Assembly (NCBI RefSeq): GCF_023195835.1
Contig: NZ_CP096200.1
Location: forward strand, 1,116,001 to 1,180,000
DNA: 64,000 nucleotides
Direction: 5' to 3'
Origin: Vibrio sinaloensis
GTDB lineage: Bacteria > Pseudomonadota > Gammaproteobacteria > Enterobacterales > Vibrionaceae
The position numbers were made by a program, and so were the translations under genes. Under the pieces are notes generated by a model. It ran no database searches and was not told the origin of the DNA. It saw only the letters and a list, made by a program, of their open reading frames with translations. Positions 11,834-51,890 of this stretch are shown here, piece by piece (position 1 is the stretch's first letter; every line of letters begins with the position of its first letter).

Positions 11834-14701
11834 TTAAAACTGACTTCTCAGATAGCTCTTGACCCGTAGAATATGCTGAGCTCGGTCAATCGAACCTTGT
11901 TGTTCTTCATTTAAGAAACGCTTGGCATAGCTTTGATCTATCTCTTGCTCTAAAAACAGCAAATAGAGTTTCGGGTCGATATGTCCGCTAATCGCCATAT
12001 CGGTCATGATGTCGACCGACTCAGAGAGCGTTTTGCCTTTCTTATAAGGACGGTCGCTGGATGTCAGTGCTTCAAACACATCGGCAATCGCCATGACTCG
12101 GGCAGGAATAGATAATTGCTCTTCACTTAGACCTCTCGGATAGCCCTTACCATCCATACGCTCATGATGCCCACACGCATATTCGGGCACTTGTTTGAGA
12201 TGCTCTGGGTAGGGTAGGCGGTTCAGCATCATAATGGTTTGAATAATATGGTCATTGATAATGAATCTCTCTTCATCGTTTAACGTACCGCGTGTGACCG
12301 AGAGGTTGTACAGTTCGCCGCGATTGTATTTAAGCTCGCCTGGCGTTAGCACAAACGTCTCTTGCCAGATATCTTGCGGTTTGGCGTCTTGTTGCCAAGT
12401 CACGAAGTGGACCGGTTTGTCACTGAGCAGAGGCTCTTGCACTGGCAGTTGAGCTTTGTGACCGGCGCGCTGCTTCTCAATCCAGGACACCCCGATTTGG
12501 TCATCCAGTGTTCTTGTCCAGGTGTACTGACTGATGCGCTTCAGACGCTCTACCGCTTCATCACTCATTGATTCGCTGCCAATATTACATTGGCCAATGA
12601 AGGCAAAATCATCATCCAGTTGCTGGTGCTTATCGCTCAACGCCTGCTTAAGCTGTATTTCGTCGCCGCCGCCCGCGATGCCTTGCCAATATTCAATCTC
12701 GGCTTGGGACTTGAGCAGCTCAAAGCGCATTCTTATTTCGTGGATTCTGTCGTAGATGGTTTCGAGTTTGGTCGCTTTATCAATCACATACTCTGGTGTG
12801 GTGACTTTGCCGCAGTCATGCAACCAAGAGGCAAGATGCAGTGCCTCCCATTGATCTTTGGACATGGAAAATATGGGGAAATACTGCTTATCTTTATCCG
12901 CAGCGGTGACTAACATTTTCGTCAGCTCAGGTACCCGTTGGCAGTGACTGCCCGTGTAGGGCGACTTGGTATCGATGGCCGAGGCGATCAGCTCAACAAA
13001 GGCATTGAGCATCTCTTTTTGTTGCTCAATGCGGTCGATGTTTTCTTTGGCAATTTCACCAAAACTCAATAGCTCTTTGAGGAACGCGTGTTTGTCTGAC
13101 TGCTCTGGAGTGATAGCACGTTCGTAGCCAAGCAATAGTACGCCGACTAAGGCTTTCTCTCGGTTGTGTAATGGAAACAGATAAACATCCGAATTATAAA
13201 GTTGCTCACGGAATTTGGCTAACCCGACGTCGTCACGGTTTAGGTGAACTATCTCGCCTTTCTTGAGCTCCGTTCTTACCCAGGGAATAGAGTCGATCAA
13301 GGTATTGATATCGATTTTGAATGGTATGATGGCGTGATTGGCCACGCTGGTTAAAAGGTGTTGTTTTTCATCTTTGGTAAACAGCACTATGGTTTCTGCG
13401 CGAGTGACCAGAAAGCTTTGGTGAGCGATAGTTTTTGCCAGTACCGAGAAGTCTTGATTGCTGGCGGTTTCACGCAGCAACCTGAGCAAGTCAAACAGAG
13501 TATGCTCCATCAGCTCAATTGACTTAGTGAGGTTGGCCACCTCTTTTATCATGCTGCGCGAGTAGCGGGTTTTCTTGAAATCAAAGCGGGCAATATTGTC
13601 GGTTTGATGCATCAAAGCTTGCAGTGGTTGAGCTAGCCTTTTGGCCACAAACCAAACCACTACGAAACTCAGCGACAATAACACCATGGCGACCGTGACC
13701 TGCTTGTCACGCAGTGAGAGTAGTGGCCTGAGGAGATCGTCTTGCGGCGTTGCCTCGGCCAATAATAGTCTCGTAGTGCTGTTGAGCTGAACTGGCGTGA
13801 GAGTCACCGACCATCGCTGCTGCTGGTATTCAGGTGTTTCATACAGTATTTGACTAGAAAGACGGTTAAGCACTGACGCGAACACTGTCTTAGATAAATG
13901 TGGCTGGGTCAACTGATCGTCCTTGAGGCCAGTATTGTGGTGGCCCAGTACCTCAAATTGGTCGTCGAATAGCATCAGTTGGGTGTTGGAAGAGTAGCCC
14001 ATTTGACTCAACTGCTCTGACAGCGATGACAGGGTAAAATCGGCGCCAACCACGCTTTTGCCGTCGGCTGAACGTCGAGACAGGGTCACTCCGGTTGTCT
14101 TTAAAAAGTAAAAGGCATAAGGCTCAGACAGCCGGATAAGCCCGTCCGCAGCGGCGTTTTGATACCAAGAACGGTTGCGTGGATCAAACGTATTGTCGTT
14201 ACTATTTCGATAGCCGACTTGTTCTAGGTTTTTGTCTAAAAAGAAGAATTCGTTACTGCCGCTGTGGAGCGCGACATTGACCATAATTGAGGCTGATAGC
14301 GGAGCGTCAAACTCGCTATAGTCGCTGCTGCTACGAAGCTCTCTTGCGATAGTGAAGTCGCCTTGCTCATTGACATAAAAGAGGGCGACGACGCCCGGGT
14401 TGCGCTCAAAGATGAGTTGCAAAGAGCGCCAAAATCTAGGGTGATTAGAGGGCGCAGCAAAGTTTGTTATGCTATCGCTGAGCGCCATAAAGTCCAAGGT
14501 GGTGAAGATAGGGCCTGCTCTCACTTGGAACGTCGACTCCAACTTACGGCTATTTTCTCGACTCAACTCTTTTGCGCTGCTAGTTAATAGCTGTTGTGCA
14601 TGCTGATAGCTAATGGCAATAAGCACAACCCCCACCAAGGAGGTGAGAACCAAAAACAGCGTTGTAATATGCATACTAAGCGAGTAGCGTTGCTTTTTCA
14701 T
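11834..14701 (-). CDS. Membrane-anchored HD-GYP domain c-di-GMP phosphodiesterase with periplasmic sensor
   Basis: A 955-residue signalling protein. Its N-terminus has a membrane helix (about 10-30), a periplasmic double-Cache-type sensor (about 35-325, with YFLKTTGVTLSRRS typical), a second membrane helix near 335-355, a HAMP-like linker and a GAF-like segment (about 400-560). The HD-GYP domain follows, with HCQRV near 590, His628-Asp629 in LHDCGKV, HHERMDGKGYP near 845-855 and ALTSSDRPYK near 880. All metal and catalytic motifs are kept. Unusually, about 150 residues separate the HDCGK block from the segment before HHE, against a few dozen in ordinary HD-GYP proteins. It probably lowers c-di-GMP in response to a periplasmic ligand. 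It is transcribed alone. Confidence 0.9.
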   Translation of the reverse strand: MKKQRYSLSMHITTLFLVLTSLVGVVLIAISYQHAQQLLTSSAKELSRENSRKLESTFQVRAGPIFTTLDFMALSDSITNFAAPSNHPRFWRSLQLIFERNPGVVALFYVNEQGDFTIARELRSSSDYSEFDAPLSASIMVNVALHSGSNEFFFLDKNLEQVGYRNSNDNTFDPRNRSWYQNAAADGLIRLSEPYAFYFLKTTGVTLSRRSADGKSVVGADFTLSSLSEQLSQMGYSSNTQLMLFDDQFEVLGHHNTGLKDDQLTQPHLSKTVFASVLNRLSSQILYETPEYQQQRWSVTLTPVQLNSTTRLLLAEATPQDDLLRPLLSLRDKQVTVAMVLLSLSFVVVWFVAKRLAQPLQALMHQTDNIARFDFKKTRYSRSMIKEVANLTKSIELMEHTLFDLLRLLRETASNQDFSVLAKTIAHQSFLVTRAETIVLFTKDEKQHLLTSVANHAIIPFKIDINTLIDSIPWVRTELKKGEIVHLNRDDVGLAKFREQLYNSDVYLFPLHNREKALVGVLLLGYERAITPEQSDKHAFLKELLSFGEIAKENIDRIEQQKEMLNAFVELIASAIDTKSPYTGSHCQRVPELTKMLVTAADKDKQYFPIFSMSKDQWEALHLASWLHDCGKVTTPEYVIDKATKLETIYDRIHEIRMRFELLKSQAEIEYWQGIAGGGDEIQLKQALSDKHQQLDDDFAFIGQCNIGSESMSDEAVERLKRISQYTWTRTLDDQIGVSWIEKQRAGHKAQLPVQEPLLSDKPVHFVTWQQDAKPQDIWQETFVLTPGELKYNRGELYNLSVTRGTLNDEERFIINDHIIQTIMMLNRLPYPEHLKQVPEYACGHHERMDGKGYPRGLSEEQLSIPARVMAIADVFEALTSSDRPYKKGKTLSESVDIMTDMAISGHIDPKLYLLFLEQEIDQSYAKRFLNEEQQGSIDRAQHILRVKSYLRSQF

Positions 14702-23648: not shown

Positions 23649-26600
23649 TTGTTAAAGCAACTTTTCTCTTACTTCTCAACCTGGATAACTGTTTTGACAG
23701 CCTTCTCGGTATTTGCTGTGTCTGCAGCGGATATCGAAGTAACGGTGAGTCCTGTTAGTGCTAACTATCAAAACTCGCAGACGATCGATTATCAAGTCTT
23801 GATTAAAAATACCTCCGCCAAAACGTTGCGAGGTATTACAGTCAGTGATCCCATTTGGCAGACTAAAGTGGAAAGCGAATCGGGCAGCGTAAACGCATTC
23901 AGCGCTTTATCCATTGGAGCATCGAGCAGTTGGGGTTCAAAACCTGGTGTTTTTAGCAGTGTTGATGCCGATCTTAATGTTGAAAATGCGGTTTTGTTTC
24001 CATATGGCCACATTGTCTATCAAGTGCAGGCAAACGTCAGTAGTGAGGCTATTGGGGAGATTGTCCTCGATAAGACTACCGTCCGAGCGGATATCGATGG
24101 TGATGGCAGTTCGGAAGTCTTCGTACCAACAACGCCAAGCATTTTTACCCCAGTCCCGTATCAATATGAATTAGACCTGTCGGTTGATAAAAGTGAGTAT
24201 CAGGTTGGTGCTCAGCTCACCTATACCTTGACGGTAACCAATACCGGCAGCTACCAAGTACAAGGGCTTGATATCAGTCAGGCGTTTCAGTCGTTAGCGG
24301 TAGAAAATGTGACTGGCTCTGCGTCCTCCCCATTTAGCAATGTCACCATTAGCGGCAAAAAAACCGGTAGTGACAGCGAACTGGGCAGCTTTGCCGCTAG
24401 TGGTGATCTAGAAGTTAGCGATGCGAAAGTGGCAGTAGGCGGCAAACTTACCTACACGATATCAACCACGGTGGCTGATAACTTGGTTGGTGATATTGTC
24501 ACTTCAGCGACTGCTCATACTAAAGATGGTGACATCGAAACTCCTCAGAGAACGACGCCTCCCGCACAGCCTATTGTGAGCATTGAGCACACGCTCAACA
24601 AAACTTCGCCATATCTAGTTGGTTCTGAACGTCTCTTTACTGTTGAAGTCAGTAACACGGGTCAGGGCATTGCTTATGGTTACCATGTTAAGCACAACAT
24701 CAATGAACTGATTTCAGACTTGGGCTTAGGTAATAACCTTAAGCCGGAACATAACAGTAGCGACCTTTCGGGTAATCCATTCGCTTACTGGAGTATTGAG
24801 GTGGCTGATATCGGCGCTAACTCTCAATCGAGCTACAAAGACTTAGGCTCGCAAACAGATGTGGATTTTGATGACCAGGTTTCAATTTTTCCTAATGAGT
24901 CGATTACTTACCAGATCAAAGCCAACATATCGCCTGTCGCTATTGGTGAAGTTAAAGGCGCCAATGCAGCCATTTTTAGCGCTGCTGGGGATTTAGAGCA
25001 AGATGCTCAAATCAGCAACATTTTTGGTGCAGAGCGTACGCTTAACGTCACCGACGCGGAAATCAAAATTGTAAAAACCACCAAAGAGTCTGAGTACATT
25101 CCGGGCAATACGGTTGAGTACGAGATTAAGGTGTCTAACTCCTCATCCAAATATTTTGCTAACAACCTACAAGTGGTCGATGACTTAACCTGTGTCCAAA
25201 CTGATATGGCGGCAGGCGCGGGGCAGGGGCAAGCATTTAAGCGCTGGAAGCTGGAGCCGGTTAGTGCTGAAGATGATTTGGGCACCGATCACGGCCAGTA
25301 CAGCTATGGCACTTGGACTACCTCTCCAGTGACAGTGTCACCAGACATTGCGCCAGGTAAGTTTGTTAGCTACAAACTCACCGCGGAAGTAAACGAGTCG
25401 AGTGTCGGGTTAATTGTTGATGACAATCCAGCGTGTAGCGATAACGTCACTGAAGAGGGCTCTGGTGTTCAGATGCCTGAAGATAACCTGCGCGCGAGTA
25501 AAGATGTTGACTCACGTTACTACTCTTCCGGTGATGTGCTCACTTACACTATTCGTGTCGATAACGATGGGGATGGCTTTGCTGACCAAGTCCATGTTGA
25601 AGATGCTATCGATACGCTTGAGACGGTTGATATCTACGGTACAACAATCAAAGCCTTTGATAGTTGGACCATTACGGCGCAAGCCTTCAAACAAAATGGC
25701 TCGCCTTCAACCGCATCAGACACAGGTATCAGTGGTAGCATCAATAGCCCTGATATTCTCGATGTCGACGCGACTATCGAACCCCATGGTTACATCATCT
25801 ATACCATTGAAGCCAAGACAAATCCGTTGGCAAACGGTCATATCCAGAATAGCGTAACGGTGGATGACTCTGTCTATGCTGACAGAGGGTCAGATCCGCG
25901 TGATTTCAGTATCAATTTGATCAAAGAGGTCAAAACCAACAATGACGCTAACTTCCATTCAGAGCGAACCAGTTACTCGAAAACCGATAACGAGATTACC
26001 TACCGTTTACGTCTGATAAACGCAAAGGGAAATGGCTACGCGACCAATGTAAAAGTCAAAGACGCTATCTCGTCAATTGAGGCTGGGATACTAGAGCCCG
26101 ATAATGTAACCAAGAAAGTTTTCTCTTCCTGGACGATTAGCGCCGACATCATCTCGGACAACCCGCTGCTGAACGGTAACAGCGCATATACTGATGTCGG
26201 GACATTTGAAGATAACAAAGATCTTGATACGGTTGCTCAGATCGCACCCAACGTTGAAGTGGTTTACACCATTACTGCGCAGATTGACCGCAGCAATGGC
26301 GATGAAATCATCTATAAGCGAATTGATAATAGCGCGGTGATTGAAACCCCGGATTCCGATTCACAGTCTGGTATGCAGGACGCGGCGGTTGTTTATCCGA
26401 AAGCGCCCAATGTGGTGGTGGTGAAGACAACCAAAGAGAATGAGTTCGTGCCCGGCCAGTGGGTCGAGTTCGATGTAACGGTATACAACCGTGGTGCAGG
26501 CTACGCGAACGAAGTGAAAGTCAGCGACGACATAGCGGGCATGGATGCTTTCTCGGATTGGACCATTAAAGCCAGTACCGACAGTAACAACGCGCCTTTC

Positions 26601-29600
26601 AAAACGGGTAGCTATCCAGATGTTAAGTCAAACTACCCAGACAATGGCAATATAGACACACGAATTGATATCGATCCTCAAACTACGCAAGGTGTAGGCT
26701 ATGTCAGCTATACCATTCGCGGTTTGGTAAAGAATGACTATAAAAGGGAAGAAATTTCCAACACGGTAGAGATTCACGACCCGGTTAATAACCTTGATCA
26801 ATCAGCGACAGCTGAAATCGGCGACAGCGGTGACGCTAAGCTGAACGTTTCTATCCTCAAAACGGCGGATGTGACTCGCTTTACGCCTGGCGAAGATGTT
26901 ACCTATTTCATCTATCTGCAAAACAACAGTGAAAACAATGCGGACAACTTAAAATTGGTTGACCCGCTAAAAGAGATCAAGTCGGTTCTTGCTAACCAAA
27001 AGAACAATCAGTTTGAAGACTATGAAGACCAGTCTCCGTTTGAATACTGGCAGTTCGACTATGGTGACGGCGCGGGTTGGCAGGCTCAAACCAATGAAGA
27101 CTTGGTCTATCCACCAGGAGGTGTTAACGAATCATTTTCTCTTGATGCGGGAGAAACGCGAACCGTTAAGATCAAAGCTCGTGTAAAGGACAATGTCATT
27201 GGTTCACGTAATGGTGTAGGGGTCTTAGAACCTATCATTGCGAACGATGCCTATATTTTCCGTGATTACAAACAGGTAACGGAAGAGTCACACGTTTCTC
27301 ATCATGAAATGGAGCGAGTAGACAGTGGTGGCACGACGACTCGTGAATTGCTGGTAAATGGTAAGGAGAGTGCCTTTTATGCACCGGGTGATACGTTAAC
27401 TTACAAAGTTAAAGTGAGCTCAAATACAGGTTACTTTAACAACCATCGAATCGCTGAAAATATCAAGGGTATTAGCGTTCTGCTGCTCGATGGTACCAAT
27501 GCTAATCCGTTTAATGACATCTTCTCTGTTGCTGTAGAAAAAGAAGACAGCGATGGCGGCGACGGTACGACTGACGGTACTTTAGATGGTGTCGTCAAGG
27601 ATAACGAAAACATAACCACAACGATTGACGTCGCGGGTGGAGACTATGTGCTATACACCGTAGAGGGTGTAGTCCGTGATGATGCGGTTGGTGACATCAC
27701 GATTGGCGGTATCACGGTTGAGCCATACGATTATCACTTAACCTTTACCAAAACCGTAGAGCAGAAAAACTATCAACCAGATTCAGAGCTGACTTACCAC
27801 CTAACGATCAAGAATGACGGTAAGGGGGGCGCTTACGATATTCCGGTAGTCGATACACTTTCGACGATCAAAGTGGGTTTGATTGATGGTAGTGAAGGGT
27901 TAGCTTTCCCAAATGGCTGGACGATTGAACCTAAAGTGCTTGGTGGCAATCCAAATGCTGAAGTTGATCTCGACAAGACGATTGCTGATAACCAAGACAT
28001 AAATACTCACGCCTCAATTCCGCCGGGCGAGACCATTGAATATATCGTCCGAGCAAAGGTAAACCCGAACGCGGTTGGCAACATTGTTAACTTGCTTAAG
28101 GTCGATGGCGATACCGTGAGTGCCGAGTCTAAAGCGGATACTGAGAAATACGAGTTCGAGAAACATGTTAGCAAAATATACGATGTTGATGGCACCACTG
28201 AACTGACTGGCGGTTACACTCCGGGCGGCTACATCGAGTACCAAATCTTGCTTAACAACAAGAACAACGTCCACCTCAAGGATGTGCCGATCTTTGATGA
28301 TATCGCGGGTATCACCACAGAGTACTTTGACGGATCGACAGGTCGTGCCTTTACTCAGTGGACCATCAAAACCGATGTCGACAAATCAACTCTCTCGGAT
28401 GCGGGAAGTGTGACGAATAACGCTAACATCGATACTGAATTTGATTTGGCGGGCAGTACGTTTGATCCGGACGGAACATTTGTTAGATACACCATCAAAG
28501 CTAAGATCTCGGAAAAAGCGGTTGGCTCAATCCAGAACACCGCTAAGGTAAATAACAAGCATAATCTTCCTTCTGAAAGGGTAGATATGCTGGCTCCAGA
28601 TGTGAAAAAGCTGCACAAAGCATACACAGATGCGAGTTATGCGGCACAGAAAACGACTTATAACCACACACCAGATGGTCAGAAGGTTGTCTACCATTTG
28701 CGTCTCGACAACAAAGGCAAAGGCACAGAGTATGACGCGAGTCTGACTGAGAGCTTCAGTAAGCTGAAATCGAAGTTAGCACAGATCGCAGCAGGCCAAC
28801 CCGATAACCAACAAGGTGTGGTCTATCAACCTGCGAGTTGGATAGTAACAGTTGAGACATCAACTGAAGAAGTGACCGATATTGGATCGTTCATTGGTGG
28901 CAGCGATGTGGATATCGACATTGCGAAGCTATCGATTGCTCCGGGTGGTTGGATTGATATCAAAGTTGAATCACAAATCCGTGATGATGCGATGACCGCG
29001 GTCACCATTACGCCTAAATATAACGGGTCTGGATTTGGTAAGTCGCAAATCAAGCCAGAAACCTCAAGTCTGGAGGTGAGTAAAGAGATCATTTCAATTG
29101 GTGGCAGACCCTACTCGAACGGCGATACTTACAAGCCTGGCGAAGAAGTCATCTACCACTTCACGGTAACCAATACTCAACCTGTTTGGCGTGATAACGC
29201 CGTGTTACGTGACATGCTGTCGAACATCACGGTAGAAGTGTTAGGTGGCGGCGTTACTCAGGCGCTGAACGATACACAAATAACTCACACCATAACGAAT
29301 GGTATAGACAGCGATGTCGACACTTATCTACCGTCTTATGACGCCAACGGTGATTTAGATATTGTTGCCGATATTGCGCCGGGTGAAGAGATCAAGTTCG
29401 TCATTAAAGGCACTATTCGACCTGACGCACTCGGTGTTATCGATGCTAACCAGGCAACGGCTGGCAACAATGAAGTCACCACGCCAGAAATCCCGCCAGT
29501 GGCGCCAGATCTCGTATTCGAGAAACTGGTTACCAATACGACGGCGGATGGTGGTAGCTGTCGCTTCCCATCGGATAGTGGTAGTGGCTGTGAATACAAC

Positions 29601-32600
29601 CCTGCTGGCCAGGTGAGCTACACAATTACGGTTGAGAACCGTGGTGAAGGTATCGCTAATGACGTTGCTATTATCGACAAGCTGAATGCTATCAACACCT
29701 CAACAGGTGCTAAGGCGTTCAGCGGCTTATCAACCACGATTCTTGAACAGCCAAGCAGTGACCGATTCTCAATCTCGGGTAATTACGCGGGTAACAAACC
29801 GCTTGATGCGACATTCGACTTGATGCCAGGTGACAAAGTGGTGTTTGGTTTGTTGGGTACAGTGGATGCTGACGCAACGGGCACCATTACCAATGTTGCT
29901 AAAGTTGATGGACAGGATTCGAACTCGATTGTGCTGGGACAGGGCGAAGCGGATATTATCGCTGCTAAGTCAACAGACACCCCAAGTTACACGCCGGGTA
30001 GTGAAGTACGTTATACCATGTATATCGCCAACCGAGCTGACTCGAATGCTGATGTACGGGTTGAAGATGAAGTTTCTAAGTTCATGGTCGAGACGGCTGA
30101 CGGCTCGATGCAAACAGCATTGCAATCTTGGTCGACGACAGCAACCTTCGTATCGAATGTAACGGCGGTGCACAATGATGCCAGTGCGATTCAAACCACC
30201 GGTGATATTGATGCGATAGTAAAATTAGGCGCGGCAGGCTCAGAGCCGACGGTGCTGAAAATTGAAGTGGTTGGCAAAGTCAGAGATGATGCGGTTGGCA
30301 AGTTTGGTAACACCTTGTATGTCAACAATAAGCAATACGACCTGCAACAACATTTCATCTATCCAGAGCTAGGGGCACTGAAAGTAACCAAGCAAGCGTC
30401 ATTGTCTCCAGCCGTTTACGCACCGGGTGATTCAATCGGCTTTGATATTGTGATTGAAAACACTGGTGCGGGTTACCTGCAAAACGTCAAAGTAGAAGAT
30501 ATTGCGTCGACTATTCGCGCTGATGTAGTAGATAGCCTACTCACCGGATCTGTATTCGATTCGTGGGACAAAGCAGCAAGCTCGATGACAATTGTTGATC
30601 CTACAGCAAGCAAAACGGCGGTGATTTCGCAAACTGACTTTGACGCACCTGATGGCTTTAGTGGTGAGTTTAACTTAGCGCCAGGGTCACAGATCCAACT
30701 TCACCTAGAAGGGACGGTGAACAGTAACGTGATTGGAGCGATTACTAACCGTGTAAACGTCACCGCAGACAATGTTGAACCTTCTAGTGATGAAGCAACA
30801 TACTTGCCTCTTGATGCGGAAGTGACGGTTTCTAAGAGCGTCGATAAGAGCGTTTATCAAGCGCAAGACACCTTAACTTACACGATTGTCTTGACCAATA
30901 CGCAACGCGTTTGGGCGACCGACGTGAAGGTTGTTGATTTGGTTGACCGCATCAGTGCCGAAACCATCTATGGCAGCACGATTTCAGTGTTCGACCCTGC
31001 AACAATTGAAATCAGTGGGGTATCAGCCAACGGAACGACAAACTTGCCCGCGCTATCGGCTAACTTCATTGAACACAGTGTCGATATTGAGCCGCAAGAC
31101 GTTGTCACTATTACCATTAAAGGTCAGCTTAAGCCTGAAATTATTGGTGAAGTGCGAAATCTGGTGACCGTCGAGTACGATGGCAAAACACTAGAAGATG
31201 ATGCCGTTAGCACACCGCTTGTTCCGTCTATAGAAGTGACTAAAGAACCATTCGACCCACTCTACACTCCGGGAACAGTGAATGGTTTTGAAATCAAAAT
31301 CGTCAACAAGGATGCGGCATTCGCTAATGATATTGTGTTAGAAGACCTCATCTCTGCTGTAATGGTGTCGACTGCAGATGGCGTTGACCGACAGGCGTTT
31401 AGTCGCTGGACGGTTGACTATTCGGCCAACGACCCGATGACTTCCGTCGACATTTCAACCTATGGCTGGAATAGCGATATCAACACCAACATCGATTTGG
31501 CTCCGAATGATACCGTGATTTTCACTATCCACGGTGAGGTGGATGCCAAAGCCATTGGCGAAATCGTTAACAGAGCGAAAGTGACATACGATGGCAAAGA
31601 GTTCGAGCCAAGCGCGACCATTAAGCCTAAGCCCGCGGATATTACCTTAACGAAAACGGCCGACCGCGAGTTTTATCAGGCCGGGCAGAGCGCTCAGTTT
31701 GTCGTGACGGTGAGCAATGATGGTGAAGGCTTTGCTAATGATGTGGAAATCAAAGATATCATCAGCGATGTACTGGTTACCCTGGTTGATGGTACTAACG
31801 GGACCGCATTTGAAAGCTGGACAATTAAGACCGAGTTTAGTGATGTCAGTTCTTCCTTGTCATCTACGCCAAGTGGTCGTAACCCAGACATTGATACCTT
31901 GGCTGATATTGCGCCAAACAGCTCGGTGACCTTTACCATTGATGGCACAGTGAATCGTTATGCGACAACGGATATTATCAACCAGGCGAGTGTCGACTTT
32001 GCTGGTCAACCAACCTTAGCTGCTCAGGCGATCATCAAGCATCGACCGGTTTCATTGACCCTCGAAAAGTATGTTGGCGAAACTGGCACGGATACCGAGA
32101 TGACTTATGAGCCGGGTAAAGAGTCAGTGTTCCGAGTTATTGTTGCCAACCAGAACGAAGCGTTTGTTGCTGGTATCCAAGTTAAGGATTTACTCGCTTC
32201 CATGACGGTAGACACGGTCAACGGTGCCAAAGAAGCCGCATTCTCTACTTGGAATATAGAAGTTAAAAAAGGGAGCGACCTGACTCAGATCGCTCCGGAT
32301 CCAAGCGGCAGCAACAAAGAGGTAGACGCTACTGTAGATCTGGCACCTAACGACACCTTAGAGCTTGTGATCACAGGCAAGGTCAATGAGTTTGCTAACG
32401 GTCAAATCGACAACAAAGCGACCATGGTGATCAACAACAGTGGCCGTCCTCAGCGGTCTAGCGCGGTGGCAACTCTGCTTCCTGAGCCTGACAACGTCGT
32501 CATTAGCGAATCTGCTGATAACCCGATTTACACCGCAGGTCAGCAAGCGACCTTCCGTATTAATCTGTTTAACGACAGTAAAGGTTTCGCCAACGATATT

Positions 32601-34712
32601 ATCCTGCGAAATTCCATCTCAGGAATGAAGGTTCCAACAAGGCCAGATATCGCAAGCGGTAACCGTGAAGTCGTTGGTGCCTTTACCGATTGGACAATTA
32701 GCGCAACCAGTAATGACCCGCGCACCAATATTAACGTCGGCACCTTGTCAGCTAATGATGACATAAACATTGCCGGTGACATTGCGCCTGGTGACACGGT
32801 GGAGATCGCGATAACGGGTACGACAGACTCGCGCGCAATGGGTGAGATTGTTAACACCACGCATAAGATTGACGAAGCGCAGTCAGCAACGGCGACGACG
32901 CGAAATGCTTCAGTGGAAACCGTCAGTGCGATGATCACGCCACAGGCCGTTAGCTTTGCTATAGATAAAACTACGGATAAAGGTGATAACGCTGAGTACA
33001 CAAACGACGACTCAGAGCTGACTTACATTCTGCGTGTGAGTAATGAGGGCTCGGCAACCATCACTGGCGCGCAAATGGTTGATGAAATCACTAAGCTGGT
33101 GGGGGCTAACGGCAATGCCTTGTTCACAACCTGGAAAGGCACTATCGAAGAGTGGCCAAGTGGTCAGAAAAAAGCTGAGTTTACTGATAAAGATCTGATG
33201 TTGCCTGACGGTGCACTTTCGCTCGATCTGCTGCCATATATGGGTAACGGTTACGAAATTAAGATTACTGGCCAGCTGAACAAAGGGCTTGATGACGATA
33301 TTACCAACACCTTCACCGTGACTGATCCTGCGACGGGAATCAGTGGTTCGGACGATGTGACTATTCACGTCAAGAAATTTGCCGATAACGAAGGTGATCT
33401 CGTTGTTGCTAAACAAGCGCTGAAAACAGAGGCTCAAGTAGGTGATGTGGTTGAATATGAAGTGACCATCGTCAACAACAACGAGTCAGAATTTAAGAAT
33501 GTTAAGCTGGTTGACCGCTACCCGTCCGGTTTTGCCTATGTTCCGGGCTCAACCGAGATAACCAATAGTGGTCCGGACGGTCAGTTTGATACCAACGATG
33601 ACGTAATCAGTACTGATGATCCAGCAGTCACCAACTCTCTAACCTTTAACGTTGGTGACATGCTTGCCTATGGTGGGGCAGAGAAGACGATTACCGAGCA
33701 AGTACGCATCCGCTACCTACTACGTGTTACTGTCGGCGCGACTTTTGGTAAATATGTCAACTCAGCGGTAGTGATGGCGCCACCGGAAGGGCAGGCATTA
33801 GGAGCGCTGGAAGAGAAGTCCAACACAGCCACAGCAACCGTTGAGGTAATGCCTGATAAGGTGTTCGATACCGCCTCCATTATAGGTAAGGTGTTTGAAG
33901 ACCATAACAGAGATGGTTTCCAGGCGGATGCGACGGCGTTCGACGTTGACATTAATGTGGATATTGATGACCGAGATTACATCGCGGGTACGACCACCAT
34001 TCAATATCAAGGGACTGAAAAGCATTTGCAAGACACCGAGCATAACAAGGGCCAGCATTCGGCTAAAGTTTATGGCATCGAGATAATGAACCCTGGTCAA
34101 TACCAGTACAACTACACCACAGGCACCTATACGCCGAAATCAACAGTAGTGAAAGACTCGGCACTGGTGGCAGGTTACCGAGTAGATAAGCTATTCGGCC
34201 TATCGAATAACCGTACCTTGCCACACAGCAATAAAGTGGTATTTCAGTTCGAAACGCGCACTGATCAGGGCTTTGATTTCAGCATCGTAACCAAGTCGGG
34301 CACCCGAATTGTGTTTGATAAGCAAGAGCTCCGCTCGACGCAATACATTGGCGACCGAGAGCAAGGTTTGTCGGCGGAGAATCTCAATGTAACTCGACAT
34401 CTCTATAAGGATGGCGATCACTACCTTTGGGAGATCGTTATTGAGAACAAGGGGATTTACGAAGACGGTGTGCCTGGTGTTCGCTTGCTTACGGTTGAGG
34501 GAATTGTGATTGAAACCGATGAGTATGGCCGTTATCACGTGCCCGATCAGTGGGTATTAGATAAGAAGGGACAAAACTTCTTGATTAAGGTAGATACCGA
34601 CTCTTTACCGACAGGGATGAAAGTCATTAGTGAGAACCCACGTGTGCAGAGAATATCACCGAACAAACTGACAAAGTTCAATTTCAGTGTGGCGGTAGAG
34701 GATGAAGATTAA
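23649..34712 (+). CDS. Giant secreted DUF11-like repeat protein, 3687 residues
   Basis: Likely an exported surface fibre or adhesin-like protein. A signal peptide covers about residues 1-26 (LFSYFSTWITVLTAFSVFAVSA). About 23 tandem repeats of roughly 140-150 residues follow (about 27-3400), each with strand-rich elements: PG..vxYtixvxN, a VxDxI element, a FxxWTI element, a DIAPG turn, and a closing GxIxNxAxV. The last repeat (3250-3404) is closest to canonical DUF11. The C-terminal 270 residues start SIIGKVFEDHNRDGFQ, an SdrD-B-like calcium-loop motif, and contain GVRLLTVEGIVIETDEYGRYHVP. There is no LPxTG or other sorting motif. The start is TTG with AGGA upstream; no better start exists because the signal peptide begins here. 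Only four cysteines occur. It is first in a three-gene operon with an outer-membrane barrel and an OmpA lipoprotein. Confidence 0.85.
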   Translation: MLKQLFSYFSTWITVLTAFSVFAVSAADIEVTVSPVSANYQNSQTIDYQVLIKNTSAKTLRGITVSDPIWQTKVESESGSVNAFSALSIGASSSWGSKPGVFSSVDADLNVENAVLFPYGHIVYQVQANVSSEAIGEIVLDKTTVRADIDGDGSSEVFVPTTPSIFTPVPYQYELDLSVDKSEYQVGAQLTYTLTVTNTGSYQVQGLDISQAFQSLAVENVTGSASSPFSNVTISGKKTGSDSELGSFAASGDLEVSDAKVAVGGKLTYTISTTVADNLVGDIVTSATAHTKDGDIETPQRTTPPAQPIVSIEHTLNKTSPYLVGSERLFTVEVSNTGQGIAYGYHVKHNINELISDLGLGNNLKPEHNSSDLSGNPFAYWSIEVADIGANSQSSYKDLGSQTDVDFDDQVSIFPNESITYQIKANISPVAIGEVKGANAAIFSAAGDLEQDAQISNIFGAERTLNVTDAEIKIVKTTKESEYIPGNTVEYEIKVSNSSSKYFANNLQVVDDLTCVQTDMAAGAGQGQAFKRWKLEPVSAEDDLGTDHGQYSYGTWTTSPVTVSPDIAPGKFVSYKLTAEVNESSVGLIVDDNPACSDNVTEEGSGVQMPEDNLRASKDVDSRYYSSGDVLTYTIRVDNDGDGFADQVHVEDAIDTLETVDIYGTTIKAFDSWTITAQAFKQNGSPSTASDTGISGSINSPDILDVDATIEPHGYIIYTIEAKTNPLANGHIQNSVTVDDSVYADRGSDPRDFSINLIKEVKTNNDANFHSERTSYSKTDNEITYRLRLINAKGNGYATNVKVKDAISSIEAGILEPDNVTKKVFSSWTISADIISDNPLLNGNSAYTDVGTFEDNKDLDTVAQIAPNVEVVYTITAQIDRSNGDEIIYKRIDNSAVIETPDSDSQSGMQDAAVVYPKAPNVVVVKTTKENEFVPGQWVEFDVTVYNRGAGYANEVKVSDDIAGMDAFSDWTIKASTDSNNAPFKTGSYPDVKSNYPDNGNIDTRIDIDPQTTQGVGYVSYTIRGLVKNDYKREEISNTVEIHDPVNNLDQSATAEIGDSGDAKLNVSILKTADVTRFTPGEDVTYFIYLQNNSENNADNLKLVDPLKEIKSVLANQKNNQFEDYEDQSPFEYWQFDYGDGAGWQAQTNEDLVYPPGGVNESFSLDAGETRTVKIKARVKDNVIGSRNGVGVLEPIIANDAYIFRDYKQVTEESHVSHHEMERVDSGGTTTRELLVNGKESAFYAPGDTLTYKVKVSSNTGYFNNHRIAENIKGISVLLLDGTNANPFNDIFSVAVEKEDSDGGDGTTDGTLDGVVKDNENITTTIDVAGGDYVLYTVEGVVRDDAVGDITIGGITVEPYDYHLTFTKTVEQKNYQPDSELTYHLTIKNDGKGGAYDIPVVDTLSTIKVGLIDGSEGLAFPNGWTIEPKVLGGNPNAEVDLDKTIADNQDINTHASIPPGETIEYIVRAKVNPNAVGNIVNLLKVDGDTVSAESKADTEKYEFEKHVSKIYDVDGTTELTGGYTPGGYIEYQILLNNKNNVHLKDVPIFDDIAGITTEYFDGSTGRAFTQWTIKTDVDKSTLSDAGSVTNNANIDTEFDLAGSTFDPDGTFVRYTIKAKISEKAVGSIQNTAKVNNKHNLPSERVDMLAPDVKKLHKAYTDASYAAQKTTYNHTPDGQKVVYHLRLDNKGKGTEYDASLTESFSKLKSKLAQIAAGQPDNQQGVVYQPASWIVTVETSTEEVTDIGSFIGGSDVDIDIAKLSIAPGGWIDIKVESQIRDDAMTAVTITPKYNGSGFGKSQIKPETSSLEVSKEIISIGGRPYSNGDTYKPGEEVIYHFTVTNTQPVWRDNAVLRDMLSNITVEVLGGGVTQALNDTQITHTITNGIDSDVDTYLPSYDANGDLDIVADIAPGEEIKFVIKGTIRPDALGVIDANQATAGNNEVTTPEIPPVAPDLVFEKLVTNTTADGGSCRFPSDSGSGCEYNPAGQVSYTITVENRGEGIANDVAIIDKLNAINTSTGAKAFSGLSTTILEQPSSDRFSISGNYAGNKPLDATFDLMPGDKVVFGLLGTVDADATGTITNVAKVDGQDSNSIVLGQGEADIIAAKSTDTPSYTPGSEVRYTMYIANRADSNADVRVEDEVSKFMVETADGSMQTALQSWSTTATFVSNVTAVHNDASAIQTTGDIDAIVKLGAAGSEPTVLKIEVVGKVRDDAVGKFGNTLYVNNKQYDLQQHFIYPELGALKVTKQASLSPAVYAPGDSIGFDIVIENTGAGYLQNVKVEDIASTIRADVVDSLLTGSVFDSWDKAASSMTIVDPTASKTAVISQTDFDAPDGFSGEFNLAPGSQIQLHLEGTVNSNVIGAITNRVNVTADNVEPSSDEATYLPLDAEVTVSKSVDKSVYQAQDTLTYTIVLTNTQRVWATDVKVVDLVDRISAETIYGSTISVFDPATIEISGVSANGTTNLPALSANFIEHSVDIEPQDVVTITIKGQLKPEIIGEVRNLVTVEYDGKTLEDDAVSTPLVPSIEVTKEPFDPLYTPGTVNGFEIKIVNKDAAFANDIVLEDLISAVMVSTADGVDRQAFSRWTVDYSANDPMTSVDISTYGWNSDINTNIDLAPNDTVIFTIHGEVDAKAIGEIVNRAKVTYDGKEFEPSATIKPKPADITLTKTADREFYQAGQSAQFVVTVSNDGEGFANDVEIKDIISDVLVTLVDGTNGTAFESWTIKTEFSDVSSSLSSTPSGRNPDIDTLADIAPNSSVTFTIDGTVNRYATTDIINQASVDFAGQPTLAAQAIIKHRPVSLTLEKYVGETGTDTEMTYEPGKESVFRVIVANQNEAFVAGIQVKDLLASMTVDTVNGAKEAAFSTWNIEVKKGSDLTQIAPDPSGSNKEVDATVDLAPNDTLELVITGKVNEFANGQIDNKATMVINNSGRPQRSSAVATLLPEPDNVVISESADNPIYTAGQQATFRINLFNDSKGFANDIILRNSISGMKVPTRPDIASGNREVVGAFTDWTISATSNDPRTNINVGTLSANDDINIAGDIAPGDTVEIAITGTTDSRAMGEIVNTTHKIDEAQSATATTRNASVETVSAMITPQAVSFAIDKTTDKGDNAEYTNDDSELTYILRVSNEGSATITGAQMVDEITKLVGANGNALFTTWKGTIEEWPSGQKKAEFTDKDLMLPDGALSLDLLPYMGNGYEIKITGQLNKGLDDDITNTFTVTDPATGISGSDDVTIHVKKFADNEGDLVVAKQALKTEAQVGDVVEYEVTIVNNNESEFKNVKLVDRYPSGFAYVPGSTEITNSGPDGQFDTNDDVISTDDPAVTNSLTFNVGDMLAYGGAEKTITEQVRIRYLLRVTVGATFGKYVNSAVVMAPPEGQALGALEEKSNTATATVEVMPDKVFDTASIIGKVFEDHNRDGFQADATAFDVDINVDIDDRDYIAGTTTIQYQGTEKHLQDTEHNKGQHSAKVYGIEIMNPGQYQYNYTTGTYTPKSTVVKDSALVAGYRVDKLFGLSNNRTLPHSNKVVFQFETRTDQGFDFSIVTKSGTRIVFDKQELRSTQYIGDREQGLSAENLNVTRHLYKDGDHYLWEIVIENKGIYEDGVPGVRLLTVEGIVIETDEYGRYHVPDQWVLDKKGQNFLIKVDTDSLPTGMKVISENPRVQRISPNKLTKFNFSVAVEDED
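23727..33860 (+). repeat. About 23 protein-level tandem repeats within the giant gene
   Basis: The repeats are visible only as protein: the DNA copies have diverged and there are no long identical stretches, so they are old duplications. Consensus marks in order are YtPGd.vtYtI.v.N.g.G.A.dV.V.D.I, about 40 residues later a FxxWTI, then D.D....IAPg..v.yti.g.v...a.G.I.N.A.V. Examples include ...WTI at about 25662, 26559 and 28354 and DIAPG at 29373. Repeat count is by eye and could be off by one or two. Confidence 0.75.
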
Positions 34713-34758
34713 TCGTGAACAACTATAACGACAAACAAACGCGATTGGTGGAAGAATT

Positions 34759-37700
34759 ATGAAAACATTCAACATGACACGTTTGGCAGTAAGTATTGTC
34801 GCTGCCATTCCGATAATGGCAGTGGCAAAAGATACTAGTCAGTTGCAAAAGCTTGATACCGATACCACCGGCATCGAGGTTGAGGTCCATCAGCAAGAAG
34901 ATAGCTCACGCATCTACCTTGATGAAGGTGCGATTTGGGCCAGCCGGGATATCACTCGTTTTGAGCCTGTATTGGATGTCAGTGTCAGTGATGAACTGGA
35001 GGTTGATCAAGGCAAGCTATCGGATTCGGTCAATTTTACGGTCAGCTCAAACTACAGCTACTACATGAAGCGCTACCAAATCGAGATCTTCCGAGGTGAA
35101 GATCGTAGTTTATCTCAGCCACTTAAAGTGATTGAAGGTACCGAGGTGGCGAACGACATCGATATCAGTTGGGATGGTAGTACCGATATCGACTACGCAT
35201 TTGAAGTCGGTAATCAGTTGCAATTCAGATTCAAGGCGTGGGACAAAGACGACAATATGGATATCACCACCATCGGTGTTATTGATTTGGTTCGTCCCGA
35301 TTCCGAAGTCGATATTGATCGTAACCAAAGTGAAGAGCAGTTGGCGCGAAGCTTTGGTCGTGCTCAGCTAATGCGGCACAACATTCCCACTAATTCAGGT
35401 CTGGCAAAATTTATCGGTACTGGGCTTAAAGGTGTCGACAAGGTCGTGATTGGTGAAGATGAGTTTGAAGTTGAAGACGGAGAACTCTACGCCGAGCAGT
35501 TCTTACCTGCGGATGCTTATCTTTTCCCAACAAAAGTTATCTTTGATAACGGTGATGAGCGCCGTTATCAGTTATATGTGCGTATCCCCGATGTGTATTA
35601 CGCCCAAGCTGGCTTGGCCGATGTGTATATCGGTAGGAATGAAGTAACGGGTAGTACTGGCGCGCTTAGGGTTAATGATCAGTACCAATACGACATATAT
35701 AACCAAGGGCGAATCGCTTACTTTAGTCAAGGCAAGTTTGGCGACAAACTGAGATTGACCACCCACTTCGATAGTAAAAATGGTCGTATAAAAGACATCT
35801 TTAATCATCCATTTGCTGCAGAAAGCTCAACAGTTTTCGACATTTTAGAAGAGGATGACGAACTCTATTATGGTGATTACGGTGATGGCGCCAACATTAA
35901 AAAGGTGGTCAATACTAAAGGTAAAGTCTATCTCGACCTAGAGTACGATAAATCGCGGGTACTATGGGGCAATTACAACACAGGTCTCACAGGTACAGAC
36001 AATAACGACTATAACCGTAGTTTGTATGGTTTTAAGGGGGATTACCGCACCCGTTCCACCACCAAATATGGCGAGGACAGACTCAATATTGTGGGCTTTG
36101 CTGCTTCCGCTGATTCATCGTTTGCACACGATGAGTTTCTCGGTACAGGCGGCTCGTTGTATTTCTTGCGCCATGGAGAATTAGTACCGGGAAGCGATAA
36201 AGTCTACGTTAAGGTAGTGAATAAAGACTCGGGAATCTCGGAGCGAGAAGTACCACTCCAGTCCGGACGGGACTATGAAATTAACCCGTATCAAGGGCGC
36301 ATCATCTTATTGCGTCCGCTGAGCAATATCATCTCCGATAGCTTTGGTAGTGTAATCGATGATACCCCTACCGATGGTTTTGAAAATTATCTGGCGGTTG
36401 ACTATGAGTATGTGCCCAAAGGCTCAGCGGTAAAAGAATCGCTTACCTATGGCGGTCGTGCCAAAGGCTGGTTAAACGACTATGTGGGTGTTGGCCTTAA
36501 TTACGCCACGGAAGAGCGTGATGCCCAAGATTATCAATCATCTGGCGCTGATTTAACCTTACGCGCAACCGAAGGGACATACATCAAAGCGGAATGGGCC
36601 CATAGTGAAGGTCGTCAAACCGACTCTAACTTTGTCTCCTTTGATGGCGGTTTGACCTTCACTCCAATTGGTGAAGGCTTCGATGAGCGCAAAGGTGACT
36701 CGATTCAGATCAAGGGTGTGGCTAGTTTATACGACATCGCACCTAGCACCTTTGGCGCGGTGGGTAACGATGTGAAAGCTTGGTATAAATCTAAAGATGC
36801 GGGCTACAGTTATGCCAGTCAGAGTGATGATTTAGAGCAACTGTCCTATGGTACAGAGCTAAGATTGCAAGCATCGGATCGATTGAGCTTTGCGACTCGA
36901 TATACGTCGATTGAAGAAACGGAGCTTGACGGCACTAAAGAGACCGATACCCAACAGGCTGAACTGGAAGCTCAGTTTAAGTTAACCGATCACGTAAAAC
37001 TGTCTGCTGCAGCTAAGCAAGTTGATGAGCTCAATCGTGAAAACAAAAAAGGCAAGGGAACGTTAGCCGGTTTAAGAGCGGACTATATTTGGGATAGCGA
37101 CAACAGCGTTTACGTTAAGGGTCAGTCGACCGTTGATAAAACCAGTCAGTACGATGATAACGACAGTGTTTCGGTGGGTACTGAGTTCCGTGTATTTCAA
37201 GATCTGTCACTTGGTGCGCAATACACCACTGGCGATCGAGGGGAGGCGACTGAAGCAACAGTCAGTTACGACATTACCGAAAATTATACTCCATACATTA
37301 CCTATGTTGATGATAATTACGAAGGCAAAAACAATCTGGTAGTAGGCCAGCGAGCTGACCTGACTTCCAATGTCGACTTTTATCAAGAAAATCAGTTTGT
37401 TGATGAGAACAACGGAAAAGGACGGATCGACTCATTTGGTTTCGGCTACGACATGAGTGATGATGTCGACTTTGGCATAGGTTACCAGCAGGGTCAAATT
37501 GAGAAGAAAAACGCAAGCGATCCGTCTAAGTTAGAGGTTACTGAACGCAAGGCGGTCACCTTTACGGCAAATGGCGATATTGATGATGTTAACCTCAGAC
37601 ACAAGATAGAGTATCGAGTCGATAAAGGAAATGAAAATGTTGATGTGACTAAGCGACGTATTGACCAGTTCGTGACGACCAATCGCTATACGCACAACCT

Positions 37701-38292
37701 AACCGAAGAGTATACTTTGTTTGCTAAGTTCAATTATTCCAAGTCAACCAGCAAGCAAACAAACCAAACCTTAGAGCGCTTTGTAGAAGCCACGGGGGGG
37801 CTGGCTTACCGACCGATTTACAACGACAGACTAAACCTGCTTAGCCGTTACACCTATATAGCAGACATGGATAACCTTGATCGTGATGTCGATTACAGCA
37901 ATCAAGAGTCCCATATTATAGAGGTAGAAGGGATTTACTCAGTGAACGCTAAAGTGGATGTAGGTGCCAAATACGCGCATAAAGATAAGAAAGAAGACTT
38001 CGAACGTGCCTCTGGAAACGTGGAAATTGTTGAGAGCAACATTAATCTCTATGGCCTGAGCACGTCTTATCACGTGATTAAAGAGTGGGATGTCACCGGC
38101 GAATATCACTGGAAGACAGACACACTCAACGATGAACTCGAGCATGGTGCGTTAATCTCCGTCAACAAGCACCTATCCGACAACTTTAAGGTCGGGATTG
38201 GTTACAACTTTTCAGGTTTTGACGGCAACTTAGCGAACGACGATGACTACGATGCCCGAGGCGTGTTTATCAACTTAATTGGTAAGATCTGA
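34759..38292 (+). CDS. Predicted outer-membrane beta-barrel with N-terminal periplasmic part, 1177 residues
   Basis: Probably an outer-membrane protein partnered with the giant repeat protein. A signal peptide covers about 1-23 (MKTFNMTRLAVSIVAAIPIMAVA). About residues 30-270 are a periplasmic or surface domain with Ig-like strand elements (NFTVSSNYSYYMKRYQIEIFR and IDISWDGSTDIDYAFE). The second half, from about residue 380, is dominated by alternating hydrophobic/polar strands with aromatic ends and acidic turns (LRLTTHFDSKNG, LGAQYTTGDRG, VGIGYNFSGFDG), as in large barrels. The C-terminus VFINLIGKI ends in Ile rather than the usual aromatic. No TonB box is recognised. It follows the giant gene by 46 bases and precedes the OmpA lipoprotein gene by ten. 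Confidence 0.8.
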   Translation: MKTFNMTRLAVSIVAAIPIMAVAKDTSQLQKLDTDTTGIEVEVHQQEDSSRIYLDEGAIWASRDITRFEPVLDVSVSDELEVDQGKLSDSVNFTVSSNYSYYMKRYQIEIFRGEDRSLSQPLKVIEGTEVANDIDISWDGSTDIDYAFEVGNQLQFRFKAWDKDDNMDITTIGVIDLVRPDSEVDIDRNQSEEQLARSFGRAQLMRHNIPTNSGLAKFIGTGLKGVDKVVIGEDEFEVEDGELYAEQFLPADAYLFPTKVIFDNGDERRYQLYVRIPDVYYAQAGLADVYIGRNEVTGSTGALRVNDQYQYDIYNQGRIAYFSQGKFGDKLRLTTHFDSKNGRIKDIFNHPFAAESSTVFDILEEDDELYYGDYGDGANIKKVVNTKGKVYLDLEYDKSRVLWGNYNTGLTGTDNNDYNRSLYGFKGDYRTRSTTKYGEDRLNIVGFAASADSSFAHDEFLGTGGSLYFLRHGELVPGSDKVYVKVVNKDSGISEREVPLQSGRDYEINPYQGRIILLRPLSNIISDSFGSVIDDTPTDGFENYLAVDYEYVPKGSAVKESLTYGGRAKGWLNDYVGVGLNYATEERDAQDYQSSGADLTLRATEGTYIKAEWAHSEGRQTDSNFVSFDGGLTFTPIGEGFDERKGDSIQIKGVASLYDIAPSTFGAVGNDVKAWYKSKDAGYSYASQSDDLEQLSYGTELRLQASDRLSFATRYTSIEETELDGTKETDTQQAELEAQFKLTDHVKLSAAAKQVDELNRENKKGKGTLAGLRADYIWDSDNSVYVKGQSTVDKTSQYDDNDSVSVGTEFRVFQDLSLGAQYTTGDRGEATEATVSYDITENYTPYITYVDDNYEGKNNLVVGQRADLTSNVDFYQENQFVDENNGKGRIDSFGFGYDMSDDVDFGIGYQQGQIEKKNASDPSKLEVTERKAVTFTANGDIDDVNLRHKIEYRVDKGNENVDVTKRRIDQFVTTNRYTHNLTEEYTLFAKFNYSKSTSKQTNQTLERFVEATGGLAYRPIYNDRLNLLSRYTYIADMDNLDRDVDYSNQESHIIEVEGIYSVNAKVDVGAKYAHKDKKEDFERASGNVEIVESNINLYGLSTSYHVIKEWDVTGEYHWKTDTLNDELEHGALISVNKHLSDNFKVGIGYNFSGFDGNLANDDDYDARGVFINLIGKI

Positions 38293-38302
38293 GGATAAAT
38301 CG

Positions 38303-39208
38303 ATGACAGGTTTAAAACAGTATGGCGTAGCGTTGATTTCCCTGATCCTCAGCGCGTGTGCAACCGACACTTATGTAAGTAAAGAGAACTTGGATAAGTT
38401 TGGCGACCCACTCGTAGAGAAGTTTTTAATTCGAGAGTGTATCGTCCCAGAGCGAGATATTCGCATCGCAGTCGCTTCTCACTTTGCCTTTGACAAGGCC
38501 GAGCTACAACCTGCTGATCAACAACAGATAGACCAGTTGATCACCAGTATTGGTAAATATCATGGTCAGATTTCGATAGTCGGTCACACCGATTATCAGG
38601 GTGACGATGACTATAACCAAAGGCTATCTTTGCGTAGAGCTGAATCAATAAAAGCGTACATGCAAATCAAGTTGGATGCTTCGCGCTACGATTGGGAGGT
38701 AAAGTACTACGGGGAGTCTCGTCCTATCGTTGAAGGCACCTCTGTTCAGGCCAACGCGCAAAATAGGCGTGCGTATGTCGTGTTCGAGCAGACTCAAACT
38801 CAGCAGGAAAATGCATTTTGTGCACCACCAGAGCCAGAGCGCAAAGTGTATGTAGCAATGACATCCCATTTTGCTTTTGACGATGCCCAACTAAGCGATT
38901 TAGACCGGCAATCGCTGGATGAGTTCGCCGACAACTTACGCGGCCTAAATGGACGCGTATTGATTGCAGGGCATACCGACTACCAGGGGGCAATTAGTTA
39001 CAACCAAAAGCTCGCGACACAAAGAGCGCAATCTGTGCAGCACTATTTACAGACCAAGCTAGACCCAACGCAATTTGTATGGGAAGTTAAAGCCTTTGGC
39101 GAACTCGCCCCGATAACACAACAACAAGACCTTGAATCTAATGCATTAAATCGTCGGGCATTTGTTGTTTTTAAACAGGGTGAGCTCCCCGATCTAATTC
39201 AAGAATAA
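38303..39208 (+). CDS. Lipoprotein with two tandem OmpA-like peptidoglycan-binding domains
   Basis: A 301-residue lipoprotein with lipobox LILSACAT. Two OmpA C-terminal domains follow: the first with HFAFDKAELQ, GHTDYQGDDDYNQRLS and RRAESIKAYM, the second with HFAFDDAQLS, GHTDYQGAISYNQKLA and QRAQSVQHYL. Each retains the Asp of GHTD and the Arg of the following helix that bind diaminopimelate in OmpA. Each ends NRRA(Y/F)VVF. The start is ATG 38303 with GAGGA upstream; a longer frame from 38279 overlaps the preceding stop and is less likely. Last gene of the surface operon, it probably ties the complex to peptidoglycan. Two such domains in one lipoprotein are uncommon. Confidence 0.93.
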   Translation: MTGLKQYGVALISLILSACATDTYVSKENLDKFGDPLVEKFLIRECIVPERDIRIAVASHFAFDKAELQPADQQQIDQLITSIGKYHGQISIVGHTDYQGDDDYNQRLSLRRAESIKAYMQIKLDASRYDWEVKYYGESRPIVEGTSVQANAQNRRAYVVFEQTQTQQENAFCAPPEPERKVYVAMTSHFAFDDAQLSDLDRQSLDEFADNLRGLNGRVLIAGHTDYQGAISYNQKLATQRAQSVQHYLQTKLDPTQFVWEVKAFGELAPITQQQDLESNALNRRAFVVFKQGELPDLIQE

Positions 39209-39220
39209 GTGAAGTCTCTC

Positions 39221-39243
39221 AAGGGGCATAGCGCCCCTTTTTA
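39221..39243 (+). terminator. Intrinsic terminator of the surface-protein operon
   Basis: AAGGGGC (39221-39227) pairs with GCCCCTT (39233-39239), followed by TTTTA. It lies 13 bases after the OmpA lipoprotein stop codon and closes the three-gene unit. Confidence 0.85.
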
Positions 39244-51632: not shown

Positions 51633-51890
51633 TTCTCGGCGGCCAAACCGAACTCTTTTAAGCTTAGGCTGCTTATGGTGGATCTTCCAGTATTCTCAAC
51701 ACAATCGGCTATATTGGCTTGATACCCAGCCATCCAATATCAGATATCGACCCTCTGGATTGAAAACCAAAACGGTCCCAAATCGGCTAAAAAACACCCA
51801 ATCAGTCTCCAGTTGGCTGTAAGTCACTAAAATATAATAAAAACTGGCCTAAACTAGTGATAAGAAAACAATAACAACAAGGATAGAGTG
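51633..51890 (+). promoter_or_regulatory. Upstream region of the LonB-like protease gene
   Basis: No gene is seen. A perfect TATAAT is at 51833-51838, with TTGGCT 14 bases upstream (a short spacer), so it is only a possible promoter. An inverted repeat ATATTGG/CCAATAT (51711-51717 with 51734-51740) lies upstream. The ribosome-binding site AAGGA is at 51878-51882 before ATG 51891. TCGGCTA/TTGGCTT words recur several times, without clear meaning. Confidence 0.4.

Follow-up and report, generated by a model that had tools for sequence, protein, structure and literature searches.

A three-gene cassette of Vibrio sinaloensis as a candidate export-and-anchor system for a CLIPPER-type fibrillar adhesin

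Gene content of the cassette

We analysed a stretch of 64,000 nucleotides of the Vibrio sinaloensis genome (NZ_CP096200.1, positions 1,116,001 to 1,180,000; hereafter the window), located in G000:C2 of a genome of two contigs and 4.17 Mb. At 23649–39208 it holds a cassette of three co-directional genes encoding a giant secreted repeat protein, a predicted outer-membrane barrel and a lipoprotein with two OmpA domains (Table 1). The open reading frames (ORFs) and the sequence agree with the gene lengths given in the first-pass annotation and with its gaps of 46 bases between giant and barrel (34713–34758) and 10 bases between barrel and lipoprotein (38293–38302). The latter gap is counted to the ATG at 38303, which is a likelier start than the TTG at 38279 and leaves a lipobox, LSAC. 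A terminator had been placed after the last gene only; a stem and T run do lie at 39221–39239, but the scan also finds sites inside genes, and its total of 12 in the region does not exceed the 13.7 expected by chance. The site is thus called terminator-like on position and shape, without statistical support.

Table 1 Features of the cassette in window coordinates (aa, amino acids; Ig, immunoglobulin-like; CTD, C-terminal domain)
Feature	Position	Strand	Basis
Giant secreted repeat protein, 3687 aa, TTG start	23649..34712	+	ORF call, Pfam/NCBIfam scan
Probable Sec signal peptide, residues 1-26, ending ...VFAVSA before A	23649..23726	+	Reading of the sequence
23 contiguous DUF11/CLIPPER-type Ig units, residues 26-3373	23724..33767	+	Iterated search
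Conserved CTD, residues 3405-3687, SdrD_B/transthyretin-like with inserted stretch	33861..34709	+	Pfam names from relatives
CTD core, residues 3605-3687	34461..34709	+	Comparison with 5 same-genus giants
Predicted outer-membrane barrel protein, 1177 aa	34759..38292	+	ORF call, no Pfam/NCBIfam family, AlphaFold2
N-terminal beta-rich part, residues 51-276	34909..35586	+	Secondary structure of model
Predicted large beta-barrel, residues 277-1177, about 40 strands	35587..38289	+	AlphaFold2 models, alignments
Conserved signature GTGGSLYFL...GRDYEI..QGRIIL..PL, residues about 440-545	36076..36393	+	Sequence comparison
OmpA lipoprotein ORF, 309 aa counted from TTG	38279..39208	+	ORF call
Lipoprotein with two OmpA domains, ATG start, lipobox Cys 38357-38359	38303..39208	+	Sequence, Pfam
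OmpA domain 1, Asp-Asn-Arg spacing D+8N+7R present	38456..38821	+	Domain search, motif check
OmpA domain 2, Asp-Asn-Arg spacing D+8N+7R present	38843..39199	+	Domain search, motif check
Intrinsic-terminator-like GC-rich stem, then T run	39221..39239	+	Terminator scan

Repeat fibre and conserved C-terminal domain

The giant is built of head-to-tail DUF11 units of ~145 residues each, the last of which ends before the CTD, and it matches DUF11 (PF01345) with 228 bits (cut-off 24.6) and, in 12 stretches, TIGR01451 with 230 bits (cut-off 24). DUF11 has been renamed CLIPPER in PMC12617251, which describes a crystal structure with an intramolecular Lys-Asn isopeptide bond and a presumed catalytic Asp. 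By alignment, 16 of the 23 units (not units 1–4, 9, 12 and 21) retain the residues of the Lys-Asp-Asn isopeptide triad.

Comparison with five same-genus giants placed the first unit among the least conserved segments (28–53% identity, lowest in three of the five) and the CTD core among the most conserved (73–94%, the top segment in four; in the fifth, unit 23 exceeds it by one point). Such a gradient would be expected of a fibre with an exposed far end. Near the N-terminus, CshA_NR2 adhesin domains occur in two and GEVED domains in three of ten relatives scanned; a Pfam scan found neither in the window's giant. The presence of CshA_NR2 in relatives favours a fibre outside the cell rather than in the periplasm, with the giant's C-terminus probably on the periplasmic side, assuming wall binding by the OmpA domains.

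A predicted barrel of about 40 strands

The barrel protein of the window has no family match in Pfam or NCBIfam at E 0.1 and no match to any PDB chain in a profile search. Among 18 scanned members of its family, 7 give weak matches to DUF2490 and 6 to OMP_b-brl, with E about 1e-5 at best, whereas the window protein gives none; relatives are annotated as hypothetical, 'TonB-dependent receptor' or 'OmpA family'. The AlphaFold2 model of the window protein (predicted local distance difference test, pLDDT, 75.2; predicted template-modelling score, pTM, 0.67) has strands spanning residue 279 to 1176, and the barrel prediction was repeated with a second AlphaFold model, of a relative. DSSP counts on the two models suggest about 40 strands (36–44 possible), and porin alignments reach both the first and the last strands. 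An outer-membrane barrel, for which a closed ring of amphipathic strands after a signal peptide is expected, is indicated by the models, the porin alignments and the weak generic-barrel Pfam matches in relatives; failure of the barrel prediction, which was to have overturned the first-pass annotation, did not occur in the window protein or its relative.

In the models, residues 51–276 are presumed to form two periplasmic Ig-like domains, and the conserved signature region is a possible usher-like plug, judging from structural alignments as well. Comparison of the signature with PDB sequences, made for its possible likeness to SprA repeats, returned three unrelated matches only (best E 0.54). 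A test of hydrophobic alternation in strands of at least 7 residues passed N-terminal (7/8) and later strands (36/43) alike and hence does not separate membrane strands.

Co-occurrence and natural fusions

A search with the barrel alone gave at least 588 barrel-signature stretches in genome contigs, 585 of them confirmed, from which a subset of 80 loci was kept. These span Vibrio, Aliivibrio, Photobacterium, Xanthomonadaceae, Kangiella, Acinetobacter, Halopseudomonas and Fusobacteriota, together with metagenome-assembled genomes (MAGs) titled Campylobacterales, Myxococcales and others; at higher rank, records with the system are titled Pseudomonadota, Campylobacterota, Fusobacteriota and Myxococcales, those of Campylobacterota and Myxococcales being MAGs. 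All but one of the 80 loci have a CTD beside the barrel or fused to it: 75 have it upstream, 3 within the barrel's own ORF and 1 downstream. The remaining locus, L109, is cut by a contig end. In a phylum-wide set of 398 genomes, the barrel profile matches 58, some weakly or partially, and a separate CTD profile matches 40, all among those 58; the 18 barrel genomes without a CTD match all have barrel matches below 200 bits. A survey of 61 relatives found a full-length barrel in 9 of the 37 genomes of the same genus, counting the window's own, and an almost complete one (34% identity) in a single genome from a different family; two other matches were short and marginal. The order giant–barrel–OmpA is kept in all eight other same-genus loci.

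The OmpA module is mobile with respect to the other two. Of the 80 loci, 49 have it at the giant's end, following the CTD, 2 inside the barrel ORF and 22 (L081–L102), all Vibrionales, on a separate gene, with one domain only in L098 and a split gene in L086. In further genomes it stands ahead of the barrel (L059, Pfam OmpA 65 bits; L060, weakly). The window lipoprotein carries two OmpA stretches (110 bits, Pfam), and the only PADLOC matches in the window, to ZorB/MotB, fall on these domains. The Asp-Asn-Arg spacing is present in 92 of 94 OmpA stretches and has been reported for the peptidoglycan contacts of PorE (PMC7463736). In Fusobacteriota, L104:3-1409 and L105:6351-9767 have, in addition to the terminal OmpA domain, another that is inserted within the CTD.

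A single ORF of L120 unites the CTD with an OmpA domain and the barrel, and CTD and barrel share an ORF in L061, L142 and L103. Such fission and fusion at module junctions suggests that the parts act as one complex with CTD and OmpA on the periplasmic side, and supports, at the level of gene sequence, the view that the giant (via its CTD), the barrel and the OmpA module are one evolutionary unit. The earlier proposal of a single wall-tied assembly finds good support in these natural fusions and in the co-occurrence of CTD and barrel; the neighbourhood comparison it had called for likewise places the three families together, in same-genus loci and elsewhere. A mirror-tree comparison of the CTD with the barrel gave r 0.93 for 79 loci and 0.86 for the 57 outside L081–L102; this correlation is confounded by species phylogeny and, although it agrees with joint descent, is not used as proof.

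Several variants were recorded. Giant and lipoprotein are split into four and two ORFs in G001 (L015:2082-17673), and giant and OmpA gene into three and two in V. aestivus (L086:1-14405), with the barrel intact in both; either decay or sequencing errors may account for this. Vibrio jasicida NZ_BAOG01000082.1 (L090, L091) carries a tandem pair of giant–barrel–OmpA cassettes, with about 16.8 kb from one barrel gene to the other. On an Eleftheria terrae plasmid (L162:1951-6703), response-regulator, FecR-domain and CHASE2-domain genes lie upstream of giant and barrel, a possible sensory link. Six remote short forms (L069, L070, L071, L075, L078, L080) combine barrel and N-terminal domains in one chain of 1,670–2,190 aa, with a separate DUF11 gene of 345–445 aa at most ~1.4 kb upstream; OmpA was found in three of them.

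Insertion site and neighbouring genes

The window cassette is flanked by a DM13-domain gene and an MscS-like gene. When 22 MscS loci were compared (L164–L185, own included), 3 held the cassette at this site, 8 (L165, L167, L170–L175) adjoined DM13 directly, with 95–412 bases between the aligned ends, 1 had a partial DM13 match and 10 had no DM13 within the 1.5 kb examined. The closest genome, G002 (MscS 92% identical), is among the eight without a cassette there, and four of the eight (G005, G006, G011 and G018) carry the cassette at another site, so that the unit appears to come and go as a block. Where four genomes of the genus have the cassette at a different site (L017–L020), its upstream neighbour is a divergent gene of 619–620 aa that by eye resembles a helix-turn-helix regulator. 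Elsewhere in the window lie a 787-aa LonB/LonC-like protease (51888–54251; AAA_32, LonB_AAA-LID) and, on the minus strand, a 955-aa HD_5 protein with a sub-cut-off dCache match (11834–14701), by its domains a possible cyclic-di-GMP phosphodiesterase.

Comparison with known systems

Relatives had previously been described as hypothetical proteins only, but for one of them a single domain has been crystallised (9IFR). The giant of L156 is the CLIPPER adhesin B9T28_05395 of Acinetobacter silvestris ANC 4999: its 2129-aa ORF matches 9IFR over residues 708–828, in agreement with the residue range and length of the crystallised domain in PMC12617251. As in the cassette family, it has a CLIPPER stalk, a CTD and a C-terminal OmpA domain, whereas the window has its OmpA part on a separate lipoprotein and no recognised adhesive head. 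PMC12617251 presents B9T28_05395 as an OmpA-anchored adhesin; its main text, as available, does not contain 'barrel', 'secret', 'translocat', 'export' or 'outer membrane', and a barrel partner goes unmentioned there. The barrel gene begins 12 bases downstream of this giant.

Type 9 systems (SprB/SprF, PG1035/PorP/PorE) likewise combine an adhesin or cargo bearing a conserved CTD with a barrel partner and a peptidoglycan-binding OmpA lipoprotein, and their SprA translocon, with 36 strands and about 7 nm, is close to the window barrel in predicted size (PMC7463736). They differ in that the window CTD is SdrD_B-like and a single barrel would serve for anchoring as well as export. Sequence gives no sign of type 9 membership: the window barrel has no SprA_N (PF14349) match in Pfam at E 0.1 and no PDB profile match.

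In type V systems (autotransporters, two-partner, intimin/invasin), too, passenger and dedicated barrel are fused or side by side, passenger first, and intimin carries a peptidoglycan-binding module, which is also part of the window system. The window barrel is predicted to be much larger than type V barrels and has no autotransporter, ShlB, POTRA or YadA match in Pfam, although 1 of the 18 barrel relatives matches YadA_anchor weakly (E 9e-4). An usher is the top VIA match of the barrel models, but this likeness to chaperone-usher ushers (FimD, PapC) is partial, the strand number differs, and Pfam finds no usher family in the window barrel or the 18 members. LapA/TolC-retained RTX adhesins are giants with one end lodged in a pore of the outer membrane, as is proposed for the window giant, whose retention end would instead be C-terminal and wall-bound; Pfam scans found no RTX family in the giant and no TolC family in the barrel. 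The best reading by analogy is a system that would work like type V and SprB/SprF/PorE without belonging to either by sequence. Type 11 secretion cargo was dropped as a candidate, the link to PMC12282271 having arisen from the text 'DUF11' matching 'DUF1194'.

Proposed mechanism and alternatives

We favour, with a probability of roughly 0.6, the reading that the cassette is a dedicated export-and-anchor display system for a fibrillar adhesin. Giant and barrel would reach the periplasm via Sec, and the beta-barrel assembly machinery (BAM) would insert the barrel, whose about 40 strands would give a C-alpha diameter of about 7 nm. Through this barrel the Ig-domain string would leave the periplasm, the predicted width being sufficient for Ig domains that are folded and isopeptide-locked; the conserved insert may plug the empty pore. 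A wide lumen suits such domains, since they cannot thread as a fully extended chain. The SdrD_B-like CTD would halt at the periplasmic mouth, beside the N-terminal domains of the barrel, and the OmpA domains, in the window on the separate lipoprotein, would clamp the complex to peptidoglycan, leaving a wall-tied fibre of roughly 100 nm (23 units, assumed to be 4–5 nm each). Given a periplasmic C-terminus, adhesin heads on the N-termini of some relatives and a very wide barrel, a barrel acting as both pore and socket is the simplest reading. A stronger proposal is a new secretion-and-anchoring system whose plugged, ~40-strand barrel would be wider than any other single-chain outer-membrane barrel known, would export Ig domains already folded and isopeptide-locked, and would afterwards form the fibre's wall-anchored base. 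It is more tentative, and we rate it somewhat below even odds.

Several observations weigh against a display system of this kind. Foldseek found no known barrel that fits globally (template-modelling (TM) score by query length ≤0.20 among the best 50 rows per search, both models), and in the sole fusion folded, L103, the CTD tail was unplaced with pLDDT <50, giving no docked arrangement. No adhesive head is recognised in the window's giant, domain searches of ORFs detected no OmpA domain in 7 of the 80 loci, and the same-genus distribution is patchy. Nor is a long fibre universal, remote relatives being single chains of about 1,670–2,250 aa with a short N-terminal part only.

An unlikely alternative is that another machine exports the giant and the barrel merely docks its CTD, as SprF/PorP does for SprB in type 9; the set of CTD protein, barrel and OmpA lipoprotein does parallel PorP–PorE–PG1035 and SprB–SprF (PMC7463736). 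The barrel is nevertheless predicted to be larger than a docking porin would need, CTD protein and barrel are one ORF in some relatives (L120, L142), and by eye the two insertion sites share no further gene within a few kb around eight same-genus loci, so that no linked second exporter is seen.

Less probable still is a giant retained in the periplasm that, together with the OmpA protein, joins barrel and peptidoglycan so as to stabilise the envelope. SlpA of Deinococcus, a connector of outer membrane to wall, tops the Foldseek list for the window model and is listed for the second, and the frequent fusion of OmpA after the CTD also points to a periplasmic C-terminus. The periplasm is, however, much narrower than a chain of 23 Ig units, and both the CshA_NR2 and GEVED domains near relatives' N-termini and the conservation gradient from first unit to CTD core point to an exposed far end. 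Nutrient uptake, with the barrel as a TonB-dependent receptor and the giant capturing substrate, is very improbable: 7 of 20 plasmid-borne relatives are named 'TonB-dependent receptor' in RefSeq and such receptors are among the Foldseek matches, but TM is low, no TonB-receptor or plug family is found in the window barrel (Pfam/NCBIfam, E 0.1) or in the tallies of 18 members (E 0.01), and to our knowledge a giant partner fused to OmpA is foreign to TonB receptors.

Significance

Gram-negative bacteria are known to have fibrillar adhesins of the CLIPPER type (PMC12617251), and we found no account in the open-access literature of how they cross, and are retained in, the outer membrane. The barrel family is not described in the available text of PMC12617251, PMC12282271, PMC8877628, PMC10787695, PMC9581022 or PMC7463736. 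The cassette names this uncharacterised family as a candidate outer-membrane partner for CLIPPER adhesins. A 2020 review (PMC7463736) ranks SprA as the largest barrel of the outer membrane, a size that the barrel described here would surpass should its strand count hold. As a three-gene unit, the cassette makes the export of folded, isopeptide-locked domains testable.
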